Shown: positions 1 through 11,321 of the stretch, one piece after another
Numbering within the stretch: position 1 is the first letter of the stretch
Layout of the letters: every line of letters starts with the position of its first letter
Assembly (NCBI GenBank): GCA_025774935.1
Contig: JALGZK010000002.1
Location: forward strand, 248,001 to 312,000
Length of the DNA stretch: 64,000 bases
Reading direction: 5' to 3'
From: a bacterium
GTDB taxonomy: Bacteria; Joyebacterota; Joyebacteria; Joyebacterales; Joyebacteraceae
Translations under genes and position numbers: made by a program
The notes under the pieces: generated by a model
The model's database searches: none
Told to the model about the DNA's origin: nothing
What the model saw: the letters and a program-made list of their open reading frames with translations, nothing else

Positions 1-593
1 CCCGAGAACCTCAACGAGATCTCGCGGGCCGCGTCAGCCATGTTGAGCGTGCCGGTGACCGCGTAGACGGTGCCGATGGCGAAGAGGATCATGACCGACG
101 CCACCGATCCGAGCACGAGGTATTTGAACCCCGCCTCGAGCTCGTCCGCCTCCGTCCCGAACGCCACGAGCGCGTACGACGCGATCGACGCGATCTCAAG
201 GAACACGTACAGGTTGAAGAGGTCGCCCGACACCACCACACCATTCATCCCCGCGACCATCAACATGAAGAGCGAGTAGTACTTCGGAAGGCCCGAGTAG
301 GCCGTCATGTACTTGAGCGAGAAGAGGATGCACAGGAACGCGACGACGTTCACCGCGATCAGAAGCAGCACCGTCAGTCCGTCGCTCACCAGCGCGATCC
401 CCACCGGGGGCGCCCACCCACCCATGTGGTGGGTCACCGCCGTGCTCCCGATCGAGAGGATCGCCATCACCGCCAGGATCACGGTAGAGAGCGCGGCCAG
501 AACCTCCCCGCTCTTCTTCCACCAGATGCCCAACATCGGGATCAGGAACGCGGCACCGAGCGGAATCGCTACGAACAGTGGAACAGGGCTCAT
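1..593 (-). CDS. Mrp antiporter subunit D / NuoN-like proton-conducting membrane subunit (partial, runs off left edge)
   Basis: Reverse-strand ORF starting ATG at 593 (MSPVPLFVAIPLGAAFLIPMLGIWWKKSG...), hydrophobic, with MVAGMNGVVVSGDLFNLYVFLEIASIASYALVAFG typical of MnhD/MbhH. Not in the ORF track because it is edge-truncated. Confidence 0.8.
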   Translation of the reverse strand, partial: MSPVPLFVAIPLGAAFLIPMLGIWWKKSGEVLAALSTVILAVMAILSIGSTAVTHHMGGWAPPVGIALVSDGLTVLLLIAVNVVAFLCILFSLKYMTAYSGLPKYYSLFMLMVAGMNGVVVSGDLFNLYVFLEIASIASYALVAFGTEADELEAGFKYLVLGSVASVMILFAIGTVYAVTGTLNMADAAREISLRFS

Positions 594-596
594 CGG

Positions 597-944
597 CTAT
601 CCCCTCAGCTTGCTGATCTGTGACATGTCGAAGGTTCCGTGCCTCTCGTAGATCCTGATGCACATCGCCACCATGAGCGCCAGTACGCCCAGCCCGATGA
701 CGATCGAGGTCAGGACGAGCGCCTGCGGAAGCGGGTCGACGAACCTCTCGAGCATCGACGAGTTCATCCCTCGCTCGATAACAGGCGCCACACCACCCTT
801 CTTGTACCCGACGATGATCAGGTACAGGTTCACGGCGTAGTCCATGATGACCAGGCCGATCACCTTCTTCACGATGTTCTTCTTCGCGACGAGGCAGTAG
901 AGCCCCATCGTCAGAAGTACCGCGCACAGGAAATAGACCGTCAT
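597..944 (-). CDS. Mrp antiporter subunit C / NuoK-like
   Basis: 115 aa, three predicted TMs, LVIMDYAVNLYLIIVGYKKG...DPLPQALVLTSIVIGLGVLALMVAM matches the MnhC/MrpC signature. Confidence 0.85.
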   Translation of the reverse strand: MTVYFLCAVLLTMGLYCLVAKKNIVKKVIGLVIMDYAVNLYLIIVGYKKGGVAPVIERGMNSSMLERFVDPLPQALVLTSIVIGLGVLALMVAMCIRIYERHGTFDMSQISKLRG

Positions 945-1396
945 CTGAGTTCACCCTCGATCATGGACCTGAAAGAGCGCCTGCGGAAGATCGCCAGCGC
1001 GCTGAACACGAGAAAGAGCGAGCTCGCAACCTTGAACGCGATCGCGATGTTCGCCGGCAAGATCATCCCCGAGCTCAGGAGCCTGAACTGCTCTCCCCGC
1101 CCGAAGACGTTCATGAAGAAATAGCCGCCCACGACCCCAGCCCACCCAATCAGGAGAAAGGCCAAGGCGCCTGCGGAGTCGAGGATGTGCGCCGCGCGCT
1201 CCCCGAGCTTCGAGAACGCCACCTCCCGCCCGTGCGCCAGCATCAGGAGGATGAAGGCCGACGCGATAATCACGCCGCCCGCGAATCCGCCGCCCGGCGT
1301 CAGGTGGCCGTAGAGGACGATGTACGCTCCGAAGATGATAATGAAGGCGACGACGAAGTCACTGATCGTCTTTACGATCAAGCTCAGACCCTTCAT
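941..1396 (-). CDS. Mrp antiporter subunit B (MnhB-like)
   Basis: 151 aa; FGAYIVLYGHLTPGGGFAGGVIIASAFILLMLAHG is the MnhB signature; overlaps neighbours as in a translationally coupled operon. Confidence 0.85.
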   Translation of the reverse strand: MKGLSLIVKTISDFVVAFIIIFGAYIVLYGHLTPGGGFAGGVIIASAFILLMLAHGREVAFSKLGERAAHILDSAGALAFLLIGWAGVVGGYFFMNVFGRGEQFRLLSSGMILPANIAIAFKVASSLFLVFSALAIFRRRSFRSMIEGELR

Positions 1397-1947
1397 GCGG
1401 ACACCACCTCCTCCCCTGCCTTGCCCGTCCTCCTCAGAATCGCGAGCGCTCCGAGGATCGAGGCGAAGAGGACGGTGGCCTCACCGAGCGTGTCGTACGC
1501 CCGGAAGTCGAGAATGATCGAGGCCACGATGTTGGCGGCGTAGGTCGCCGGCAATCCGGTCTGCACGTACACCTTCGACACCCTCATCAGCGGCTCGCCG
1601 AACGCCGGGAAGCCCGTGCTCCCGAAGATCAGCGCCCCGAACCCCAGGAGCATCCCGAAGAAGATGAGCGATGCGACCATCGCCAGCGTGTCCCGTCCCT
1701 TCTCGATCGCCGTGTTGTCGAGAAGGATCGTCCCCCGGATCAGGATGATGAGCACGAGGACCTCGACCACCAGCTGCGTGATCGCAATGTCCGGCGCGCC
1801 GAGGAACAGGAACGCGATAGACAACGCGAACCCGACCGCGCTCACCGAGATCACGGCGGACAACAGGTTCTTCGTCTCGATGGCGATGATCGAACCCACC
1901 ACCATGAAGACGAGGAGCGTGTACAACTGTGGGGCGATGTTTTCCAT
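1393..1947 (-). CDS. MrpA C-terminal/DUF4040-type subunit (MbhD/MbhE-like)
   Basis: FLFLGAPDIAITQLVVEVLVLIILIRG is characteristic of DUF4040/MnhA C-terminal domains; operonic. Confidence 0.8.
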   Translation of the reverse strand: MENIAPQLYTLLVFMVVGSIIAIETKNLLSAVISVSAVGFALSIAFLFLGAPDIAITQLVVEVLVLIILIRGTILLDNTAIEKGRDTLAMVASLIFFGMLLGFGALIFGSTGFPAFGEPLMRVSKVYVQTGLPATYAANIVASIILDFRAYDTLGEATVLFASILGALAILRRTGKAGEEVVSA

Positions 1948-2070
1948 GTACTCGTCTCCCGCCAGTCCCGCGCTGAACCCCTGCTGAACCCGTAAAGGAA
2001 ACCCCTGTTTGTTCTGTCGTCCGTTCGGTCGTTTCGTTCTGTCGTCGGTCCGCGCCCAGGGGCGCGCCGC

Positions 2071-3966
2071 TTACTGTCTGCTCGCCAGCTCCTTCAGGAG
2101 CACGGTCAGGAGCACGAAGACGATCGCGCCGAGGCCGATGACCGACCACGCGAGATACGTGGAGAGGACGCCGTCGTGGAGCATCCTCAGTCCCTGCACG
2201 AAGACGTTGCCCACCCTGCCGCCGACCTCGTAGACGTCGAAGATGCGCTGCTCCGCGTTGGCGAAGAGGCCGCGCAGCCCCGTCTCGTGGCGGATGGTGT
2301 TGTAGAAGTCGGTGCCGGTCACGTGCATTGGGTCCATGTTGCTCGATGGAACCGTCCCGCCGATGAAGATCCGACCCGTGCGGCGCTTCGCGAGCTTGCC
2401 GAACGCGAAGATGCCGAGGCCCACGATGATCCCGATGATGATGAGGCCCGTCGCGACGGTCGGGTCCCAGAACCCGACCGCGATGTCGAGCGTGCCTGCG
2501 GCACTCGTCCCGACCGCACCGTGGACGATCGGGTTGATGAACCTGTCGATCGGGAACTTCGCCCAGACGCCGAAGATCACGCAGAGCGCGGCAAGGACGA
2601 TCATCGGGACCGTCATCGCCCAGTTCGACTCTCTGACCTTCGCCAGGGCCGTCGGCCGCTGGCCGAGGAAGCCCGAGTAGATGACCTTCACGAATGAGGC
2701 CAGAGTGAGCGCGCTTCCGAAGAGGGCGGCGATCAGGAAGATCCAGTAGGGCTTGAAGCCCCTCGCCCCGAGCTCGACCAGACCCGAATAGACCATCCAC
2801 TTCGAGACGAACCCGTTGAACGGCGGGATGCCCGAAATCGCGAACGCCGCGATGGCGCAGGCGGCGAACGTGATCGGCATCGCCCTAGCGAGCCCACCCA
2901 GTTTCGAGATCTCGGTCGTGCCGGTCTGCTTCTCGATCGACCCCGCGGACAGGAAGAGACACGCCTTGTAAATCGCGTGGTTCAGCATGTGGAAGATGCC
3001 GCCCGCTATCCCGACGGGGATTCCCGTGCCGACACCCAGCACCATGTACCCGACCTGGCTGATCGCGTGGTACGAGAGCAGGACCTTGAGGTCGTGCTGG
3101 ATGAGCGCCATCAGGACCGCGCCGAGGATGGTCACTGCACCGATGATCATGAGGGTCAGCTGCAGACCCGGGCCGATGCTGAAGATGTCGAGGCTGATCC
3201 TCGCGAGGAGGTAGATGCCGAGGAGCTTGTCGATCGAGGCGGGCAGGAGCGCCATCACCGGGGTCGGGGCGCCCTTCGCGGCCGCCGGGATCCACGTGTG
3301 GAAAGGCATCGCTCCGGCCTTCGTGATCGCGCCGACCATCATGAGAAGGTACATCGTGATGGTGACGCCATCGCCCGCGAAGATCGAGAGCTCGCTCATC
3401 GAGAGGGTCCCGGACTTCATCCAGATCATCGCGATCGCCATGAAGAGCGCCGCGTCGGAGAGCCCGAGCATGATGAAGCTCTTCGCCGCCCCGTCGGCCG
3501 CCTCCTCCTTCTTTCTACCCAGGATGATGAAGAAGACGAGGACCGCGGTCAGCGCCTCCCAGAAGATGAGCATCACGAGGAGGCTGTTCGAGAGAACCGC
3601 TCCGCAGCTCGCCGCCACCGTCCAGAGCAGGAACGCGTAATACCTCCGCCCGTCGTGCTCCTTCGAGAGCCACGACATCGAGTAGAGCCCGATCAGAAGC
3701 CCGAAGAGCCCCACGAAGATAATGACGAAGCTGCTGAACTGGTTCAGGAGGAGGTCGAACTGGACCGTGAAGTTACCCAGCACCATCCAGTCCTTGGTGT
3801 ACGAGAGCGGCCACGACCCGAACAGCTGGAGCGTCGAGACGAACGCCCAGACCAGGGCGATGAGCGAGATGGCCTCCCGCACGTACTTCACGCGACGCGG
3901 TATGAGGAAACAGAGACCACCCGCGATCGCTGGGACGACAATGGGAATGAGTATCGGTGACATCAA
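2071..3966 (-). CDS. NuoL/MrpA-type proton-conducting membrane transporter
   Basis: 631 aa, many TMs; LLVMLIFWEALTAVLVFFII, GAITKAGAMPFHTWIPAAAKGAPTPVMALLPAS..KLLGIYLLAR typical of the proton_antipo_M domain. Confidence 0.9.
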   Translation of the reverse strand: MMSPILIPIVVPAIAGGLCFLIPRRVKYVREAISLIALVWAFVSTLQLFGSWPLSYTKDWMVLGNFTVQFDLLLNQFSSFVIIFVGLFGLLIGLYSMSWLSKEHDGRRYYAFLLWTVAASCGAVLSNSLLVMLIFWEALTAVLVFFIILGRKKEEAADGAAKSFIMLGLSDAALFMAIAMIWMKSGTLSMSELSIFAGDGVTITMYLLMMVGAITKAGAMPFHTWIPAAAKGAPTPVMALLPASIDKLLGIYLLARISLDIFSIGPGLQLTLMIIGAVTILGAVLMALIQHDLKVLLSYHAISQVGYMVLGVGTGIPVGIAGGIFHMLNHAIYKACLFLSAGSIEKQTGTTEISKLGGLARAMPITFAACAIAAFAISGIPPFNGFVSKWMVYSGLVELGARGFKPYWIFLIAALFGSALTLASFVKVIYSGFLGQRPTALAKVRESNWAMTVPMIVLAALCVIFGVWAKFPIDRFINPIVHGAVGTSAAGTLDIAVGFWDPTVATGLIIIGIIVGLGIFAFGKLAKRRTGRIFIGGTVPSSNMDPMHVTGTDFYNTIRHETGLRGLFANAEQRIFDVYEVGGRVGNVFVQGLRMLHDGVLSTYLAWSVIGLGAIVFVLLTVLLKELASRQ

Positions 3967-4049
3967 CTTCCCCCCGCGCCTCTAGGAGTAGGGTTCGTTT
4001 CGGTGTTCGGCTCCTCGGATCCTCGGGCCAGACGCCCTCGGATTCCCCA

Positions 4050-5222
4050 TCAGGAGTTCCGTCTGATCTCTTCCGTCTTCTCGTGACTCAGTCTCAAGAG
4101 CTCACCCGGGCCGTAGGTTATCCTGCCCGAGGGATCGAGCACCGTCATTCGCTCCGTGCAGCTGTAGCACGGGTCGATGATCGCGAAGCACAGGAGGGCG
4201 TCGGTGATCGTCTCGCCCTTCACTCTCGGCCTGAACGTCGGGATGTTGTTGTAGGTCGGCGCCCTCATCTTGTGCCGCTCGGGCATGTTCGTGCCGTTCG
4301 AGCGGATGAAGTGGAACGTCTCGCCGCGGGGTGCCTCGATGTGACCGATGCCCTCGCCCCTCGGGACCTCCCGGATGCCGGCGTCGATCGGCCCGCCGGG
4401 GAGCTTCTCGATGCACTGCTTCACGATCTTGACCGACTCCTTCATCTCGAGGAGCCGGATGACGGCGACCGCGAGGCAGTCGCAGCCGTCCTGTGTGATC
4501 ACGTTCCAGTCCACCTCGGCGTACGCACCGTACGGCTCGTCCCGCCGGAGGTCGATGTCGACCCCGGAACCGCGAGCCGTCGGCCCGAGCGCTCCGTAGG
4601 CGATCGCGTCTTCCTTCGTGAGGATGCCGACGCCCTTCAGGCGGCCGAGGATGACCGGGTCGTCGAGCACCGCCCCCGTCAGCAGGTCGACCTTCTCGTC
4701 GAACTCGTCGAGGATCTTCAGGACCTTCGGCCAGATCTCGTCGGGAACGTCCCGCCTCACACCACCGGGTCTGTACCACGCGTAGTGCTGCCGGTTCCCC
4801 GTGATCATCTCGAGCGCGTCGAGGATCGGCTCGCGGTACTTCCAGCCCCACATGAAGACGGTCCAGTACCCGATGATGTGACCGCCGAGCCCGACCCACA
4901 GCATGTGGCTGTGGAGCCGCTCGAGCTCGTGGACGATCGTCCGGAGGTACCTCGCCCGAGCGGGCACCTCGCACCCCACTACGTCCTCCACCGCCCGCGA
5001 CGCCGCCCAGCTGTGGGACGCCGAGCAGATCCCGCAGATCCGCTCCACCAGGAACGTGTCCTGGTCGTACGTCTTCTCCTGTGCGAGGAGCTCCATCCCC
5101 CGGTGATTGCGGCCGAGGTCGATGTCCGCACTCAGCACCCTCTCGCCGTCGACCTCCAGGGTGATGTACTCCGGCTCCTCGAGGACAGGATGAAATGGTC
5201 CAATGGGAATGGTCGTGCTCAT
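4050..5222 (-). CDS. Group 4 [NiFe]-hydrogenase-type large subunit (NuoD/EchE family)
   Basis: 390 aa with both Cys pairs: L1 ERICGICSASH and L2 DPCYSCTER near the C terminus. Confidence 0.9.
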   Translation of the reverse strand: MSTTIPIGPFHPVLEEPEYITLEVDGERVLSADIDLGRNHRGMELLAQEKTYDQDTFLVERICGICSASHSWAASRAVEDVVGCEVPARARYLRTIVHELERLHSHMLWVGLGGHIIGYWTVFMWGWKYREPILDALEMITGNRQHYAWYRPGGVRRDVPDEIWPKVLKILDEFDEKVDLLTGAVLDDPVILGRLKGVGILTKEDAIAYGALGPTARGSGVDIDLRRDEPYGAYAEVDWNVITQDGCDCLAVAVIRLLEMKESVKIVKQCIEKLPGGPIDAGIREVPRGEGIGHIEAPRGETFHFIRSNGTNMPERHKMRAPTYNNIPTFRPRVKGETITDALLCFAIIDPCYSCTERMTVLDPSGRITYGPGELLRLSHEKTEEIRRNS

Positions 5223-5651
5223 CTATTCATCTCTCCTCATCGGGTGGAAGTCGGCAGGTCTGTCGTGGGAGGAGAGCAGCTTCCGCGGATCGGGGTGTCC
5301 GTCGAACTCAACGCCCAGGAAGTCGAAGATCTCCCGCTCGATGAAGTCGGCCGCCGGGTAGTACTTCGCCAGCGACTCGATTCTCGGGAAGGGCTTCGCG
5401 AGGATCGTCCTGATGTTGACGATCGTGCCGTCCCGGTCGATCCCGAAGTGGTAGAGGAGCTCCACCCCTGTTGGCCTGTCACTCCCTGTTGCCGTGCACA
5501 GCCTCCCCTTCTCCTCCTCATGCATGTAGCGCGTGACGGGAATCCAGTCCTCGTTGGCCACCGTCACGTACGCGCGGCGAGCGGATCGCTCGACGACGTC
5601 CACCCTGTCGCCGAACTTGGTCTTCAAGCGTTCCAGAACCTCTTTGCTCAT
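5223..5651 (-). CDS. NuoC-like (Complex I 30 kDa family) hydrogenase subunit
   Basis: 142 aa; EIFDFLGVEFDGHPDPRKLL is the 30 kDa-family signature; sits between large and small subunit genes. Confidence 0.85.
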   Translation of the reverse strand: MSKEVLERLKTKFGDRVDVVERSARRAYVTVANEDWIPVTRYMHEEEKGRLCTATGSDRPTGVELLYHFGIDRDGTIVNIRTILAKPFPRIESLAKYYPAADFIEREIFDFLGVEFDGHPDPRKLLSSHDRPADFHPMRRDE

Positions 5652-5708
5652 CGTGTCGTTACCCCCCGTCCCCGGCGACGAAACCGCGCCCGGGCCCGTG
5701 CTCTCCCG

Positions 5709-6122
5709 TTACAGCGTGCCGATCAGCTTCACGATCCCGCCGATGATCGCTTCCGGTCTCGGCGGGCACCCGGGGATGTAGGCGTGAACCGGGATGTGCT
5801 TGTCGATAGGGCCGGCGAAGTTGTTGCCGTCCTTGAAGATCCCGCCCGTGCACCCACACGACCCCAGCGCCACCACCGCGCACGGCTTGGGTGCCTGCTC
5901 CCAGGTCTCGATGACGTCCGGCACGACCTTCCTCGGCACGCTCCCGGAAACGAGGAGCACGTCGGCGTGCTTGACGCTGCCCACGAGCTTGATGCCGAAC
6001 CGCTCCACGTCGAACCTCGGGGTGAGGCAGTCGAGCACCTCGATGTCGCAGTTGTTGCAGGCCCCGGCGTTCAAGTGGAACACCCACAGTGACTTCTTGA
6101 ATCCCCAACCTGTTGCGCCCAT
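5709..6122 (-). CDS. NuoB-like / [NiFe]-hydrogenase small subunit
   Basis: 137 aa; NAGACNNCDIEVLDCLTPRFD (CxxC, hydrogenase-type), ALGSCGCTGGIF, IPGCPPRPEAI. Confidence 0.9.
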   Translation of the reverse strand: MGATGWGFKKSLWVFHLNAGACNNCDIEVLDCLTPRFDVERFGIKLVGSVKHADVLLVSGSVPRKVVPDVIETWEQAPKPCAVVALGSCGCTGGIFKDGNNFAGPIDKHIPVHAYIPGCPPRPEAIIGGIVKLIGTL

Positions 6123-6141
6123 GAATCGCTCCGTCTGAACC

Positions 6142-7080
6142 CTAGAGGCCCAATACCGCGAGTATCATACCGACGATGGCGAGGATCGTGACCGGGCCCC
6201 AGAAGAAACGAACGGCCTGGTCGATCCTCACTCTGGGATTCGTGTTCTTGATGAGGACGATGATCGTCACGATGATCACGTACTTCACGATCGTGTAGAG
6301 GATGCCCCACCCCGTCAGCTGCAGGCCGCCCCAGAAGATCGTGATGAAGAAGACGGGCAGCGTGAAGAGCATCATCGCCTGGGTAACCTTGACGACGGCG
6401 AGGGCGGCGCCTGAGTACTCCATGTGGGTGCCGTCCATGAGCTCGGTCTCCGCCTCCGGGATGTCGAACGGCGGATACGTGAGCTTCGCCTGCGCGCAGA
6501 GGATCGCGACGACGAACGCGATGATGCACGAGAGATTGCCGAGAAGAACACCGTTCATGGCCTGGTACTCGAGGATGCCGTCGAGCTTGAGGGTCATCGG
6601 CGAGACCTTCGTGACCGCGGTGAAGATCGCGATCACGAACGGGAGCTCGTACGCGAGGATGAGCTTCATCTCGCGGCTGGCGCCGATGCTCGAGAGGGGG
6701 TTGCCCGACGCGGACGCGCCGATGATCATCCCGAGCGAGGGAATCGTCAGAAGGTAGATGACGCCGATCAGGTCCCCCACGAAGCCCGCGCCCCTCATGT
6801 TCGCCAACCACAGCATCGTCGACACCAGAGCCACCGCCGCGAGGCCTGCCAGCGGGGCCACCAGGAACCCCGTGCGCTTCGCGCCCTCGGGGATCACGAT
6901 CTCCTTCCCCAGGAGCTTCAGGACGTCCGCGAAGGGCTGGTACCAGGGCGGGCCGACCCGCCACTGCACGAGAGCCGATACCTTCCTGTCGACCCACGTC
7001 GTCAGGAGACCGACCACGGCAGTGAAGACCAGGCCCGGGAAGACGATGAAGTAGAGAATCATGCTCAGTGTAGAAGCCAT
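6142..7080 (-). CDS. NuoH-like / hydrogenase membrane anchor subunit
   Basis: 312 aa; TWVDRKVSALVQWRVGPPWYQPFADVLKLLGKE is the NuoH/EchB signature. Confidence 0.9.
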   Translation of the reverse strand: MASTLSMILYFIVFPGLVFTAVVGLLTTWVDRKVSALVQWRVGPPWYQPFADVLKLLGKEIVIPEGAKRTGFLVAPLAGLAAVALVSTMLWLANMRGAGFVGDLIGVIYLLTIPSLGMIIGASASGNPLSSIGASREMKLILAYELPFVIAIFTAVTKVSPMTLKLDGILEYQAMNGVLLGNLSCIIAFVVAILCAQAKLTYPPFDIPEAETELMDGTHMEYSGAALAVVKVTQAMMLFTLPVFFITIFWGGLQLTGWGILYTIVKYVIIVTIIVLIKNTNPRVRIDQAVRFFWGPVTILAIVGMILAVLGL

Positions 7081-7136
7081 CCTGTTACCTCTCCCGTTAT
7101 CTTCTTACGCGTCTCGTGTGGAACGCACCGGAACCC

Positions 7137-7619
7137 CTACCTCTCCCTCCGCACCGTCTTCTCCCGGGTCCGGCCGCCCCTCATCGGGGCGCCCCTCTGG
7201 GCCTCGAGGTCGCTGATGTCCTCGAACGTCCGGGCCTTGGACGTGCACGTCCCAGCGCACATCGTGTCCTTCTGCTCGAGGGTCCGCCACTCACAGAGAT
7301 CGCACTTCGGCATCGTGTGGCGGGTCTTGTTCAGGTCGATCGCACCGAACGGGCACGCCTGCGCGCACGAAGTACACCCACTGCACTCGATGTTGCTCCG
7401 GATCACGAGCCCGTCGTCGCGCCTCACGATCGCCTCCTGCGGACAGGACGCTTCACAGAGCGGCTGCTCGCAGTGCCTGCAGTTCATCTGCAGCACGATG
7501 TTCGTGAGGACCTTCGACGCCTCGAGGTGATCCTGGGTGTTGTGCGAGTAGTAGCAGGCGGCTATGCAGCTCCTGCAGCTGATGCAGCGCCCGTAGTCCA
7601 GGATGTTTCTCTTGTTCAT
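7137..7619 (-). CDS. 4Fe-4S polyferredoxin electron-transfer subunit (HycB/CooF-like)
   Basis: Start taken at ATG 7619 (MNKRNILDYGRCISCRSC). Multiple Cys clusters: CISCRSCIAAC, CRHCEQPLCEASC, CSGCTSCAQAC, CDLC...CAGTC. Confidence 0.85.
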   Translation of the reverse strand: MNKRNILDYGRCISCRSCIAACYYSHNTQDHLEASKVLTNIVLQMNCRHCEQPLCEASCPQEAIVRRDDGLVIRSNIECSGCTSCAQACPFGAIDLNKTRHTMPKCDLCEWRTLEQKDTMCAGTCTSKARTFEDISDLEAQRGAPMRGGRTREKTVRRER

Positions 7620-7686
7620 CCAAGTCCCCCGGAGATGTCTCCGCCGCCGGTTGCCTGAGCGCAGCCGCGCGGCCACTCCCGTTTCG

Positions 7687-9384
7687 CTACGCCTCCGGCG
7701 CGACCTTCGCGCCCTTGGCGGAAACGTCGTACCACTTCGTGCCCGCGTTAGGGGTCCAGACCATGAGTCCCCTCGCGTCCGGCACGTACGTCGGAATCGC
7801 CACGAGACCGCCGGGCATCCGGTCGGTCACCGTGACGATGAGGCTCGTCTCGCCGCGGTCGGTCGCGACCGCAACGCTCGCGCCCTGTTCGATCCCAAGG
7901 CCCCCCGCCGTGTCCTCGCCGATCCACACCTCGGCGTAGGGTGAGATCGTCTGTGGGAAGCTCATCCTGCTGGTGACGGTCCCGTCCCCGCGGTGCAGTG
8001 GGCTCGTGCCCTCGATGAGGTCGACCCCGTCTGCTGCGCCGGCCGCGGCGATCTTCGCGAGAGCGGCCTCGACATCGATGTCTACCGGCGGGTGCTCCGC
8101 CTTTGCGCCCGCGGCCGCGGCCGGGAGCGCTGCGCCCAGCCCCTTCGCGACGTCGCCGAGCATGCTCGCGATCGTCCGGGCGTCGCCCTGAGGAGCCGTC
8201 AGCGGCGCGATCGTGGTCGAGATCCCGAACGAGCCCGTGTAGGTCCCGTTCACCTCCGACCAGACCGCCTGCGGGAGTCCGACGTCGCTGTGCTTCGTGA
8301 CGTCGTTCTCGAAGATCGCGGAGGCCGCGAGGAACTCGAGCGCCTCGACGTCGTCCTGCGAGAGGGCGCCCGGGTAGAGCTGCACGATGTCGGGTCCGAA
8401 GACCAGGAGCCCCTTGATCTTCCTGTCGGCCACGTCCTTGAGAATGTCCGGGACGGTCTTCGCCGAGCCGACGCGCTCGAACGCGCCGATCGTGTTCCCA
8501 CCGCGGAAGAGCGGGGCGTACTTGCCATTCGCTGCCGCCGCGAGCTTCGCGGCGAGCATGCCGGTGAGATACGCGGAGGTTGAGTCGCCGAGCCTTGAGG
8601 AGACGAGCACGACGACCTTGTGCTGCTCTTTGAGGTTCTTCGCGATCGCGGTAATCTCGTGCGGCTCGAGCCCGGCCGCGTCCGCAGCCTTCCCGACGTC
8701 GACCTTCGGCGCTCCCTGGATGCCCATCTCGGAGAGCAGCGCCGCGAGGACGAGCGGTTCGGCGCCGGGCCGCACCTTCACGTGTCGATCGGCGAACCAG
8801 TCCGTGTTCGTCCTGTAGGGGTTGAGCGTGTAGACGCGATTGGACCTCGCCTGGTGGCGCGCCTCGATGATGCGCTTCGAGATGCACGGGTGGCCCCAGA
8901 AGACGTCGCCGACCATGACGAAGCAGGTGGCGTCGTCGAGGTCGGTCGGCACCGCGTCGCCGACCCCGCCTCCTCTCAGAAGCGGGTAGTCGCTGCCGCC
9001 GTAGGCGACGGCGACGTTGTTCGTCCCGAGGGCGGTCGCGGCGAACGCGACGGCTGCGTCGTAGTCCTCGTTCGAGAGCTCGGTCCCCACGATGACACCC
9101 AGCGCTCCTCCCCCGCCCGCGCCCTTGATCTCACCGATCCTGCCGGCGACCTTGGTCACCCCGCTCGACCACGGCACCCTTCGCCTGTTGACCGTCGCTC
9201 CCAGGAACCTCTTCGGATGGAGCAGGAGCTCGTAGTTGTAGTGCCCCCTCACGCACAGCGACCCCAGGTTCACCGGAGCCTCCGTGTCGAGGTCGACCCT
9301 GACGGGCACCCCGCTGTCCATCTCCATCCCATACCCGCACTGAAGCGAGCAGAAGAGACACGACGCCTTCTTGATCTCTGGCAT
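7687..9384 (-). CDS. Molybdopterin oxidoreductase-family subunit (formate dehydrogenase / FwdB / NuoG-like)
   Basis: 565 aa; N-terminal CLFCSLQCGYGM...NLGSLCVRG 4Fe-4S Mo/W domain, internal GTNNVAVAYGGSDYPL, C-terminal molydop-binding-like domain. Confidence 0.75.
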   Translation of the reverse strand: MPEIKKASCLFCSLQCGYGMEMDSGVPVRVDLDTEAPVNLGSLCVRGHYNYELLLHPKRFLGATVNRRRVPWSSGVTKVAGRIGEIKGAGGGGALGVIVGTELSNEDYDAAVAFAATALGTNNVAVAYGGSDYPLLRGGGVGDAVPTDLDDATCFVMVGDVFWGHPCISKRIIEARHQARSNRVYTLNPYRTNTDWFADRHVKVRPGAEPLVLAALLSEMGIQGAPKVDVGKAADAAGLEPHEITAIAKNLKEQHKVVVLVSSRLGDSTSAYLTGMLAAKLAAAANGKYAPLFRGGNTIGAFERVGSAKTVPDILKDVADRKIKGLLVFGPDIVQLYPGALSQDDVEALEFLAASAIFENDVTKHSDVGLPQAVWSEVNGTYTGSFGISTTIAPLTAPQGDARTIASMLGDVAKGLGAALPAAAAGAKAEHPPVDIDVEAALAKIAAAGAADGVDLIEGTSPLHRGDGTVTSRMSFPQTISPYAEVWIGEDTAGGLGIEQGASVAVATDRGETSLIVTVTDRMPGGLVAIPTYVPDARGLMVWTPNAGTKWYDVSAKGAKVAPEA

Positions 9385-9411
9385 GTCGGTTAACCCCTCA
9401 ACGTGAATCCA

Positions 9412-10257
9412 CTAGAACGGATCTTCGAACTTCGCGATCTGCGCTGCGGTCAGGACCGGACCGTCCTTGCAGATATAGTACTCGCCCAGCATGCAGTGTC
9501 CGCACTTGCCGAGCCCGCAGCTCATGTTCCGCTCCATCGAGTGGTAGATGTTCTCGGGCTTGAAGCCCTTGTCGAGGAGCGCCATGTTCACGAACTTGAG
9601 CATGATCGGGGGCCCGCAGACGCACGCGATAGCATTCGACGTATCGAGCGGCAGCTGGTCGACGTCGACCGTCGTGACGAACGCGAGGTCTTCGAGGAGA
9701 ACCGTCACGACTCCTACCGTCCCGGTCCAGTCCGGGTGCGGCTCGTCGATCGTCAGCTGGACCTCGGTGTTCTTCATCTTCTCCCAGTCAGGGAGGAGAT
9801 CCAGGTAGACGATGTCCGCCGGTGAGCGCGCGCCGTAGCGAATCGAGATCCTCTTGTACTTGTCGATGTCGTCGAAGAGGGCGAGGATGAGGGAGCGGAG
9901 CGGGGCGAGACCGACGCCACCGCCCACGATGAGGATGTCCCGGCCCTCGAAGTCCTTCAGGTTGTAGCCCTCTCCGTACGGTCCCCGGATTCCCACCGTG
10001 TCCCCCACCTTCATCTTCGCGAGGGCGTCCGTGACCGAGCCGACCTCCATGATCGTGATCTCCATGGTGTCGGTGACGTTCGGGTTCGAGGACGGAGTGA
10101 AGGGAGCCTCGCCGACGCCGGGGACGGTCAGTTCGACGAACTGACCCGCCTCGAACGTGATGGGCTCCTTCGGACGAAACCTGTAGGTCTTGATGTTCGC
10201 GGTCTCTTCCCTGATGTCCTCAATCACGCTTTCGATTGGCCTGTAGAGATTCTTCAT
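9412..10257 (-). CDS. FAD/NAD(P)-binding hydrogenase subunit gamma (HydG/AsrB-like)
   Basis: Start taken at ATG 10257 (MKNLYRPIESVIEDIREETANIKTYRF). GRDILIVGGGVGLAPLRSL NAD-binding motif; C-terminal CGLGKCGHCMLGEYYIC 2Fe-2S motif. Confidence 0.85.
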   Translation of the reverse strand: MKNLYRPIESVIEDIREETANIKTYRFRPKEPITFEAGQFVELTVPGVGEAPFTPSSNPNVTDTMEITIMEVGSVTDALAKMKVGDTVGIRGPYGEGYNLKDFEGRDILIVGGGVGLAPLRSLILALFDDIDKYKRISIRYGARSPADIVYLDLLPDWEKMKNTEVQLTIDEPHPDWTGTVGVVTVLLEDLAFVTTVDVDQLPLDTSNAIACVCGPPIMLKFVNMALLDKGFKPENIYHSMERNMSCGLGKCGHCMLGEYYICKDGPVLTAAQIAKFEDPF

Positions 10258-11321
10258 GCCTTCGCCTTCTCCGTGACGATGTGCTTGACGGCCTCGCGCA
10301 TGTCGATCCTGCCCATGCAGACGTCGATGCACCTGCCGCAGCCTGTGCATGTGACGAGACCGTATCTGTCGCGGGAGTACTCGTACTTGCAGCGGATCCT
10401 GTTGTCCAGACGCTGGGGAAGGTCGGGCCGCGAGTTGCCGCCGCCACCCGTCCGCGCGTAGCCGATCGACAGGCACGTGTCCCAGTTCCTCGACCTCTCG
10501 TACCCACCCTTCGCTCTCTGGTCGACCAGGAGGAAGCAGGTGCAGGTCGGGCACGTGCGGTTGCACGCTCCGCACGCGACGCAGTTCTGCGTCACGTACG
10601 CCCAGGCGTCCGCAGACCCCTCGAGCTCGTGCTTGTCGTACGCGACGTCCACGGCGAACTCGGCGTTCTGTCTGTCGATCGCTTCCTTGACCGAGTTCCT
10701 CCTTCGCTCGCGCTCGTCGGTGTGGTTCTGCTGAACGTCCGCGACCAGGTCGTCCGCGCCCGCCATCAGCGTCTCGCCCTTTTCGGACCCGACGGTCAGA
10801 ATGAAGCCCGTGTCGATCGGCGAGAGGTTGACGTCGAAACCATTCTTCGCGAAGGGCTCACCGCCGACCATCGTGCAGAAGCAGGTCTCCTTCGCCGCGG
10901 TGCAGTCGACCGAGACGATGTACGTGTTCTTCCGCTTCTCGATGACGAACGGATCGTCGTACTCCTCCGTGAAGTGCGCAGTGCTCCAGTAGACCTTGTC
11001 GAACTTCGCGAGGCCGCGGACGTCGCATCCCCGAGGGCCCACGATGACGGTGGGCGGCGCCGTCACATCCGCATCCGCTTCGCTGCTCGGGTAGTTCGCG
11101 ACAACCTCGCGCGGGTAGAAGATGAACGACTTCGCGGGAAGCGCGAGAGCCGCGCCCGCGAGGTGCAGCTTCTCCGGCACCTCGTCGCCCACCAGCTCGT
11201 AGTCCGGCGTGTCCTCGTTGTTCATGATGTCGAACGTCACCGGAACGTACACGCGGTGATCCTTCGCCCACCGTTCGATCAGTCGCCGGAGATTCTCTTT
11301 GCCGATGAAGACTTCTTTCAT
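10254..11321 (-). CDS. 4Fe-4S dicluster hydrogenase subunit beta (HydB/AsrA-like)
   Basis: Start taken at ATG 11321 (MKEVFIGKENLRRLIERW). GPRGCDVRGLAKFD, CVACGACNRTCPTCTC and CTGCGRCIDVC motifs; overlaps the gamma subunit by 4 nt. Confidence 0.85.
   Translation of the reverse strand: MKEVFIGKENLRRLIERWAKDHRVYVPVTFDIMNNEDTPDYELVGDEVPEKLHLAGAALALPAKSFIFYPREVVANYPSSEADADVTAPPTVIVGPRGCDVRGLAKFDKVYWSTAHFTEEYDDPFVIEKRKNTYIVSVDCTAAKETCFCTMVGGEPFAKNGFDVNLSPIDTGFILTVGSEKGETLMAGADDLVADVQQNHTDERERRRNSVKEAIDRQNAEFAVDVAYDKHELEGSADAWAYVTQNCVACGACNRTCPTCTCFLLVDQRAKGGYERSRNWDTCLSIGYARTGGGGNSRPDLPQRLDNRIRCKYEYSRDRYGLVTCTGCGRCIDVCMGRIDMREAVKHIVTEKAKA

Follow-up and report, generated by a model that had tools for sequence, protein, structure and literature searches.

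A conserved [NiFe] hydrogenase–Mrp operon of a seafloor-seep bacterium with a HydB-HydG module and a probably non-catalytic MopB

The 64,000-nucleotide stretch of contig JALGZK010000002.1 analysed here (G000:C18:248001-312000, hereafter the window) belongs to the draft genome (code G000; 3.24 Mb, 96% complete) of a seafloor-seep bacterium, most likely a member of Candidatus Effluviviacota (PMC11323493). It contains most of an operon in which the genes of a group 4 [NiFe] hydrogenase and an Mrp membrane arm are joined by a HydB-HydG diaphorase module and by mopB, a gene for a molybdopterin-family protein with the fold of formate dehydrogenase (FDH). We consider it reasonably probable that the operon products form a single membrane complex, an H2-evolving ion pump of the Mbh-like, Mrp-linked kind with two electron inlets, in which MopB would serve as a molybdenum-free relay. 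The single-complex reading is based on the colinearity of 17 genes, on the position of hydB-hydG-fd4, which is always before nuoH, and on the single clade that the loci form. The genes, their motifs and conserved order, the lost catalytic residues of MopB and the missing molybdenum cofactor genes are all read at the sequence level. The operon occurs in at least 28 of the sampled bacterial families.

Hydrogenase core, Mrp arm and conserved gene order

The operon consists of 17 co-oriented genes on the minus strand, which start at position 11321 and are read leftwards in the order hydB, hydG, mopB, fd4, nuoH, nuoB, nuoC, nuoD, nuoL, mbhDE, mrpB, mrpC, mrpD, mrpE, mrpF, mrpG, nuoI, with intergenic gaps of −8 to +123 nt. 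A first-pass annotation of the window had described an operon of 13 genes. The genes that it listed are present on the minus strand at the coordinates it gave, co-oriented and closely spaced, but the operon is longer, with its left end about 2.76 kb to the left of window base 1 (locus L003). Since mrpD crosses the window edge, the apparent left edge of the gene set at base 1 is a window artefact, and the leftward extension that had been proposed in search of MrpE/F/G yielded the rest of mrpD, mrpE, mrpF, mrpG and nuoI.

Analysis of the large subunit (NuoD) revealed that the four cysteines of its nickel ligand motifs (RICGIC and DPCYSC) are intact in the window protein and kept, together with a C-terminal extension, in all 41 large subunits; its best PDB match is the alpha subunit of the Pyrococcus furiosus membrane-bound hydrogenase (MBH). 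With these cysteines (motifs L1 and L2) and partners of the PF01058, PF00329 and PF00146 families, the catalytic pair belongs to the group 4 [NiFe] hydrogenases, as had been proposed, and the MbhD/E and mrpB-G genes found within the same operon provide a complete Mrp-like arm, as in Mrp-linked complexes of the Mbh type. The operon differs from that of respiratory complex I in having the nickel ligands and in the absence of NuoE/F genes. No separate complex I was found in G000, where the operon's nuoD is the single PF00346 gene, and its presence was rejected on this ground; the Nuo-like genes of G000 are parts of a hydrogenase and not of a quinone reductase. Conservation over the clade is at least 95% for the acidic cluster of NuoH, for the eight cysteines that bind clusters in NuoI and for the antiporter lysines in both NuoL and MrpD. 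The maturation protein HypD was found in 15 of 16 genomes; in G000, for which a leftward search for maturation genes had been proposed, it is encoded apart from the operon, on contig C38. The retention of the nickel ligands, of the C-terminal extension and of HypD counts in favour of the proposed hydrogenase complex.

A NuoD profile search of 386 bacterial genomes gave matches in 65, and 40 neighbourhoods were fetched and annotated with profiles built from the window operon. The relatives in genomes G154 and G162 were gained by a profile search and the rest by the NuoD search; a contig scan for MopB used too specific seed peptides and therefore returned only Effluviviacota-type contigs. All Effluviviacota contigs of sufficient length have an identical 17-gene order, and this order is found again in two distant families, those of G154 and G162, at 25–70% protein identity, which excludes a chance arrangement. 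In G154, frames of 112 and 522 aa are located between nuoL and mbhDE (L063:9095-11057), the latter with no Pfam match.

The following counts refer to 31 loci outside the phylum with an intact upstream end, which represent 27 coded families and include G154 and G162. In all of them hydB-hydG and fd4 precede nuoH, and in most the Mrp genes follow downstream in the same order, some contigs ending early. MopB is located between hydG and fd4 in eight loci (G154, G162, G386, G387, G169, G304, G308 and G022), and in the loci that lack it hydG and fd4 are separated by 180 nt or less, or overlap. In a concatenated tree, obtained by a quick method without bootstrap and with some long branches, the 41 loci form one clade (SH-aLRT 100), on which the history of MopB takes two changes, approximately one gain and a possible loss in G037. 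MopB was thus inserted about once between hydG and fd4 and is an optional part of the operon, while HydBG is a constant one. As regards the independent distribution of the HydBG and Mo genes, which had been named as a challenge to the composite complex, it holds for the Mo gene and not for HydBG.

MopB and molybdenum cofactor supply

MopB had been annotated at first pass as a working Mo-oxidoreductase within a node linking formate or another substrate, NAD(P)H, ferredoxin and H2. Weak molybdopterin Pfam matches and four N-terminal cluster cysteines of the window protein speak for a working molybdenum or tungsten enzyme, as does the presence of MoaA and MoaC in G000. However, the FDH catalytic loop GTNNVDHCARLCHAP is replaced by GTNNVAVAYGGSDYPL in the window MopB, and the catalytic selenocysteine/cysteine-histidine pair is absent from every MopB at the operon position. 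The PF00384 scores range over the lineages from 83 bits down to none (a catalytic-type FDH near the G357 operon reaches 237), the G162 protein stops before the C-terminal pterin-binding domain, and MopB diverges much faster than the products of the neighbouring operon genes. Effluviviacota, G162 and G304 have the cluster motif C-x2-C-x3-C, whereas C-x2-C-x3-D is found in its place in six other genomes; this Cys-to-Asp replacement, seen at the N-terminus of the MopB alignment, is spread over four families. Aspartate as the third cluster ligand is an arrangement known for some ferredoxins, and it may tune the cluster of MopB. As for cofactor supply, of the 22 MopB genomes tested, G000 alone has MoaA and MoaC, and the other 21 lack both. 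Among 21 genomes without MopB, 8 have both.

On its active site and cofactor supply, MopB falls outside the bis-molybdopterin guanine dinucleotide Mo/W oxidoreductases, and its candidacy as FDH or as another Mo/W enzyme was rejected on the active site, the cofactor genes and the erosion of the protein; a working enzyme of this kind is in our judgement highly improbable. The formate node is likewise unlikely, because the catalytic pair is lost, MopB is eroded and its hosts mostly lack MoaA and MoaC. From its sequence, MopB is probably not an enzyme. The AlphaFold model (pLDDT 91) has FDH as its closest fold (TMq 0.85), followed by nitrate reductases, with NuoG lower (0.75). Based on this FDH-like fold, the lost catalytic residues, the erosion and the absent cofactor genes, MopB is best read as an FDH-derived, molybdenum-free subunit, a relay or scaffold analogous to NuoG of complex I.

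Whether a dead FDH was recruited independently of NuoG, as a molybdenum-free relay that connects an NAD(P)H flavoprotein with a [NiFe]-Mrp core of the complex I type, is a narrower claim, to which we give slightly less credence than to its contrary. If true, it would be a parallel invention of the N-module architecture of complex I within a ferredoxin- and NAD(P)H-linked hydrogenase of many uncultured bacterial families. If MopB is a molybdenum-free relay, it would be a second case of the fate of NuoG in complex I, one in which versions with and without the subunit can be compared. In metabolic models, a MopB gene at this operon position should not be annotated as formate dehydrogenase.

Other genes of the molybdopterin family and of cofactor synthesis were encountered near some of the loci or in the same genomes. 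G357 (L106:18084-19901, with a catalytic-type CARLCHAP motif) and G226 (L110:3-1118) have a separate FDH gene upstream of the hydrogenase operon, at a distance of a few genes. G000 is the sole tested Effluviviacota genome with MoaA and MoaC, and some 32 kb from these genes lies a MopB-family frame of 1305 aa (G000:C22:231703-266394).

Electron entry and direction of the proposed complex

Among solved structures, HydB and HydG are closest to the beta and gamma subunits of sulfhydrogenase 1 from P. furiosus (PDB 9nez), in agreement with the HydBG-like diaphorase of the first-pass annotation. HydG retains its motifs for FAD, NAD(P) and [2Fe-2S] (conserved in 39 rows), and HydB retains two [4Fe-4S] motifs, all with a conservation of at least 95% over the clade; the donor of HydG would be NAD(P)H, the sequence data fitting NAD and NADP alike. 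The sulfhydrogenase equivalog cut-offs were missed (NF040833, 146.5 of 750 bits; NF040835, 184.5 of 650 bits), as were those of AsrAB sulfite reductase (TIGR02910, 116.6 of 323 bits; TIGR02911, 207.6 of 288.6 bits), and no AsrC gene is present in the operon. Judged by these profiles, HydB and HydG are homologous to the sulfhydrogenase subunits, yet represent a different member of the family.

It could be argued that HydB-HydG, with or without MopB and fd4, forms a soluble enzyme of its own, either an NAD(P)H:ferredoxin oxidoreductase or a sulfur reductase, and shares no more than its expression with an ordinary ferredoxin-driven Mbh: homologues elsewhere belong to soluble enzymes (sulfhydrogenase, AsrABC), and second copies of hydB or hydG are found near some loci. 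Such an enzyme is nevertheless unlikely in view of the strict hydB-hydG-(mop)-fd4-nuoH adjacency in the 31 loci, of a HydBG module that has no alpha subunit of its own, and of fd4, which would provide a cluster chain towards NuoB.

As to the state as a single complex, its direction and donors, its coupling ion and the part played by MopB, we infer the following. Reduced ferredoxin would enter via the NuoI-type ferredoxin, while the electrons of NAD(P)H would pass from the FAD of HydG through HydB, MopB, fd4 and NuoB to the [NiFe] site of NuoD, at which protons would be converted to H2. With ferredoxin as the donor, NuoH, the NuoL- and MrpD-type antiporter subunits and the other Mrp subunits would couple electron flow to the export of H+ and/or Na+; electron transfer from ferredoxin to H2 is downhill and is established to drive ion export in MBH. 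The presence of both MrpD- and NuoL-type antiporters, compared with one in MBH, suggests that more ions could be moved per electron pair.

Several points weigh against this proposal. Under standard conditions, electrons do not pass downhill from NAD(P)H to H2, so that the NAD(P)H branch would have to run near equilibrium, be co-driven by ferredoxin, be paid for by the ion gradient or be reversed (H2 to NAD(P)H). The stretch fetched for G045 (L104) shows no Mrp genes downstream of the hydrogenase core. As to the Mo-free role of MopB, the window genome is itself the one that encodes MoaA and MoaC, and G357 and G226 lack these genes, yet have a catalytic-type FDH gene near the operon; missing cofactor genes alone are therefore no proof of a missing cofactor. 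Moreover, most of the host genomes are draft metagenome-assembled genomes, which limits arguments from gene absence.

As far as the sequence goes, the complex could work in either direction. A complex that runs mainly in reverse, with H2 oxidation reducing NADP+ or ferredoxin at the help of the ion gradient, would suit the poor quality of NAD(P)H as a donor for H2 and the listing of group 4e enzymes as physiologically reversible (PMC5037454). On the other hand, the closest relatives evolve H2, and the available text of PMC11323493 describes the host as a fermenter with other hydrogenases, so that we regard a mainly reversed complex as improbable.

Gene layout, related loci and known systems

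Coordinates of the operon genes are collected in Table 1. The gyrA gene is found about 520 nt upstream of the operon and a convergent gene downstream; no tRNA or RNA elements were found within the window.

Table 1. Genes of the hydrogenase operon (window positions; negative numbers lie to the left of base 1)
Gene	Position	Strand	Product and matches
hydB	10254..11321	-	HydB/AsrA-like [4Fe-4S] electron-transfer subunit, 355 aa, first gene of operon; PF17179; PDB 9nez_B E 1.9e-37
hydG	9412..10257	-	HydG/AsrB-like FAD/NAD(P)/[2Fe-2S] diaphorase subunit; PF00970, PF00175, PF10418; 9nez_C E 7.6e-52
mopB	7687..9384	-	FDH-fold molybdopterin-family protein, 565 aa, without catalytic Sec/Cys-His; PF04879, PF00384, PF01568 weak
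fd4	7137..7619	-	Ferredoxin-like, up to four [4Fe-4S] clusters; PF13247 and other Fer4 families; homologues with 12-19 Cys
nuoH-like	6142..7080	-	Membrane subunit; PF00146 E 2.9e-63; acidic cluster conserved
nuoB-like	5709..6122	-	Small subunit, hydrogenase-type CxxC; PF01058; C22, C25, C89, C119 conserved in 41 rows
nuoC-like	5223..5651	-	PF00329 E 2.9e-23
nuoD-like	4050..5222	-	[NiFe] large subunit; RICGIC and DPCYSC ligands, C-terminal extension; PF00346, PF00374; 6cfw_L E 3.3e-80
nuoL-like	2071..3963	-	Antiporter subunit (MrpA N-terminal part); PF00361; K214, K245, K387 conserved in 38 rows
mbhD+E fusion	1393..1947	-	MrpA C-terminal part, DUF4040; PF13244, PF20501
mrpB	941..1396	-	PF04039
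mrpC	597..944	-	PF00420
mrpD	5' part 1..593, gene end at -945 (outside window, L003)	-	PF00361
mrpE	-962 to -1465 (outside window, L003)	-	PF01899
mrpF	-1465 to -1719 (outside window, L003)	-	PF04066
mrpG	-1712 to -2044 (outside window, L003)	-	PF03334
nuoI-type	-2159 to -2764 (outside window, L003)	-	Ferredoxin, 2x[4Fe-4S]; PF00037

A second NuoD-like gene was observed in 8 of 20 Effluviviacota genomes. In L135 (G004:C26), L136 (G006:C72) and L137 (G005:C69) it has no nickel ligands and is part of an Mrp-linked operon of the Ehr/Mbx type; the L135 operon encodes its NuoI as a 617-aa fusion with a GltD-like pyridine nucleotide oxidoreductase. The NuoI-GltD fusion gene of such an Ehr-type complex is also present in G386 and G387, directly upstream of hydB (L095:373-3405 and L096:17638-19485), the NuoD of that complex being also present in L095; the Ehr-type complex and the hydrogenase may share one operon in these genomes.

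Group 4 [NiFe] hydrogenases and mrpBCDEFG have been reported for Candidatus Effluviviacota, the available text not describing their operon arrangement (PMC11323493). As an arrangement, the composite is not new. Its gene set matches the group 4 [NiFe] region described for Saganbacteria RX5A and, in related form, for Zixibacteria and Omnitrophica, where genes for hydrogenase and Mrp-like subunits occur together with asrA, asrB, a cooF-like ferredoxin and a molybdopterin oxidoreductase that the authors could not classify (Matheus Carnevali et al. 2019; PMC6349859). An Mbh-like function was proposed for that region, and its Mo-type subunit was read, unlike here, as part of a possible oxidoreductase module; the likeness is one of gene set, and the main text of PMC6349859 holds the matching genes but no biochemical function, gene order across families, optional MopB or Mo-free reading. 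What appears to be new is that 16–17 genes keep a fixed order in many families, that HydBG is constant and MopB optional, and that MopB is read as Mo-free. NPL-UPA2 looked alike, but has no hydrogenase according to its authors (PMC6305446). Similar complexes of Omnitrophota and Cloacimonadota, some of them Mrp-linked, have been assigned to group 4g (PMC8542988, PMC10066038), the role of which is listed as undetermined in HydDB (PMC5037454); the conserved operon predicts the subunit composition and two electron donors for perhaps a large part of this group.

Among the known systems, P. furiosus sulfhydrogenase 1 (9nez) has homologous beta and gamma subunits, which serve there a soluble group 3b hydrogenase. 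The formate hydrogenlyase of Escherichia coli (4a) and the formate-H2-Mrp complexes of Thermococcales (4b) also combine an FDH-fold subunit, a ferredoxin and a group 4 hydrogenase, with Mrp in 4b, but their FDH is catalytic, whereas the operon MopB is devoid of the catalytic residues. P. furiosus MBH (group 4d, 6cfw) shares the ferredoxin-type inlet, the [NiFe] pair and the NuoC/H-like and Mrp-like subunits; in contrast, it has one large antiporter-like subunit and, to our knowledge, no HydBG, MopB or fd4. NuoG of complex I is, like the proposed MopB, a non-catalytic FDH-fold subunit placed between a flavin NAD(P)H subunit and the NuoB/NuoD core, but MopB is nearer to FDH in sequence and fold and lacks the N-terminal ferredoxin domains of NuoG.

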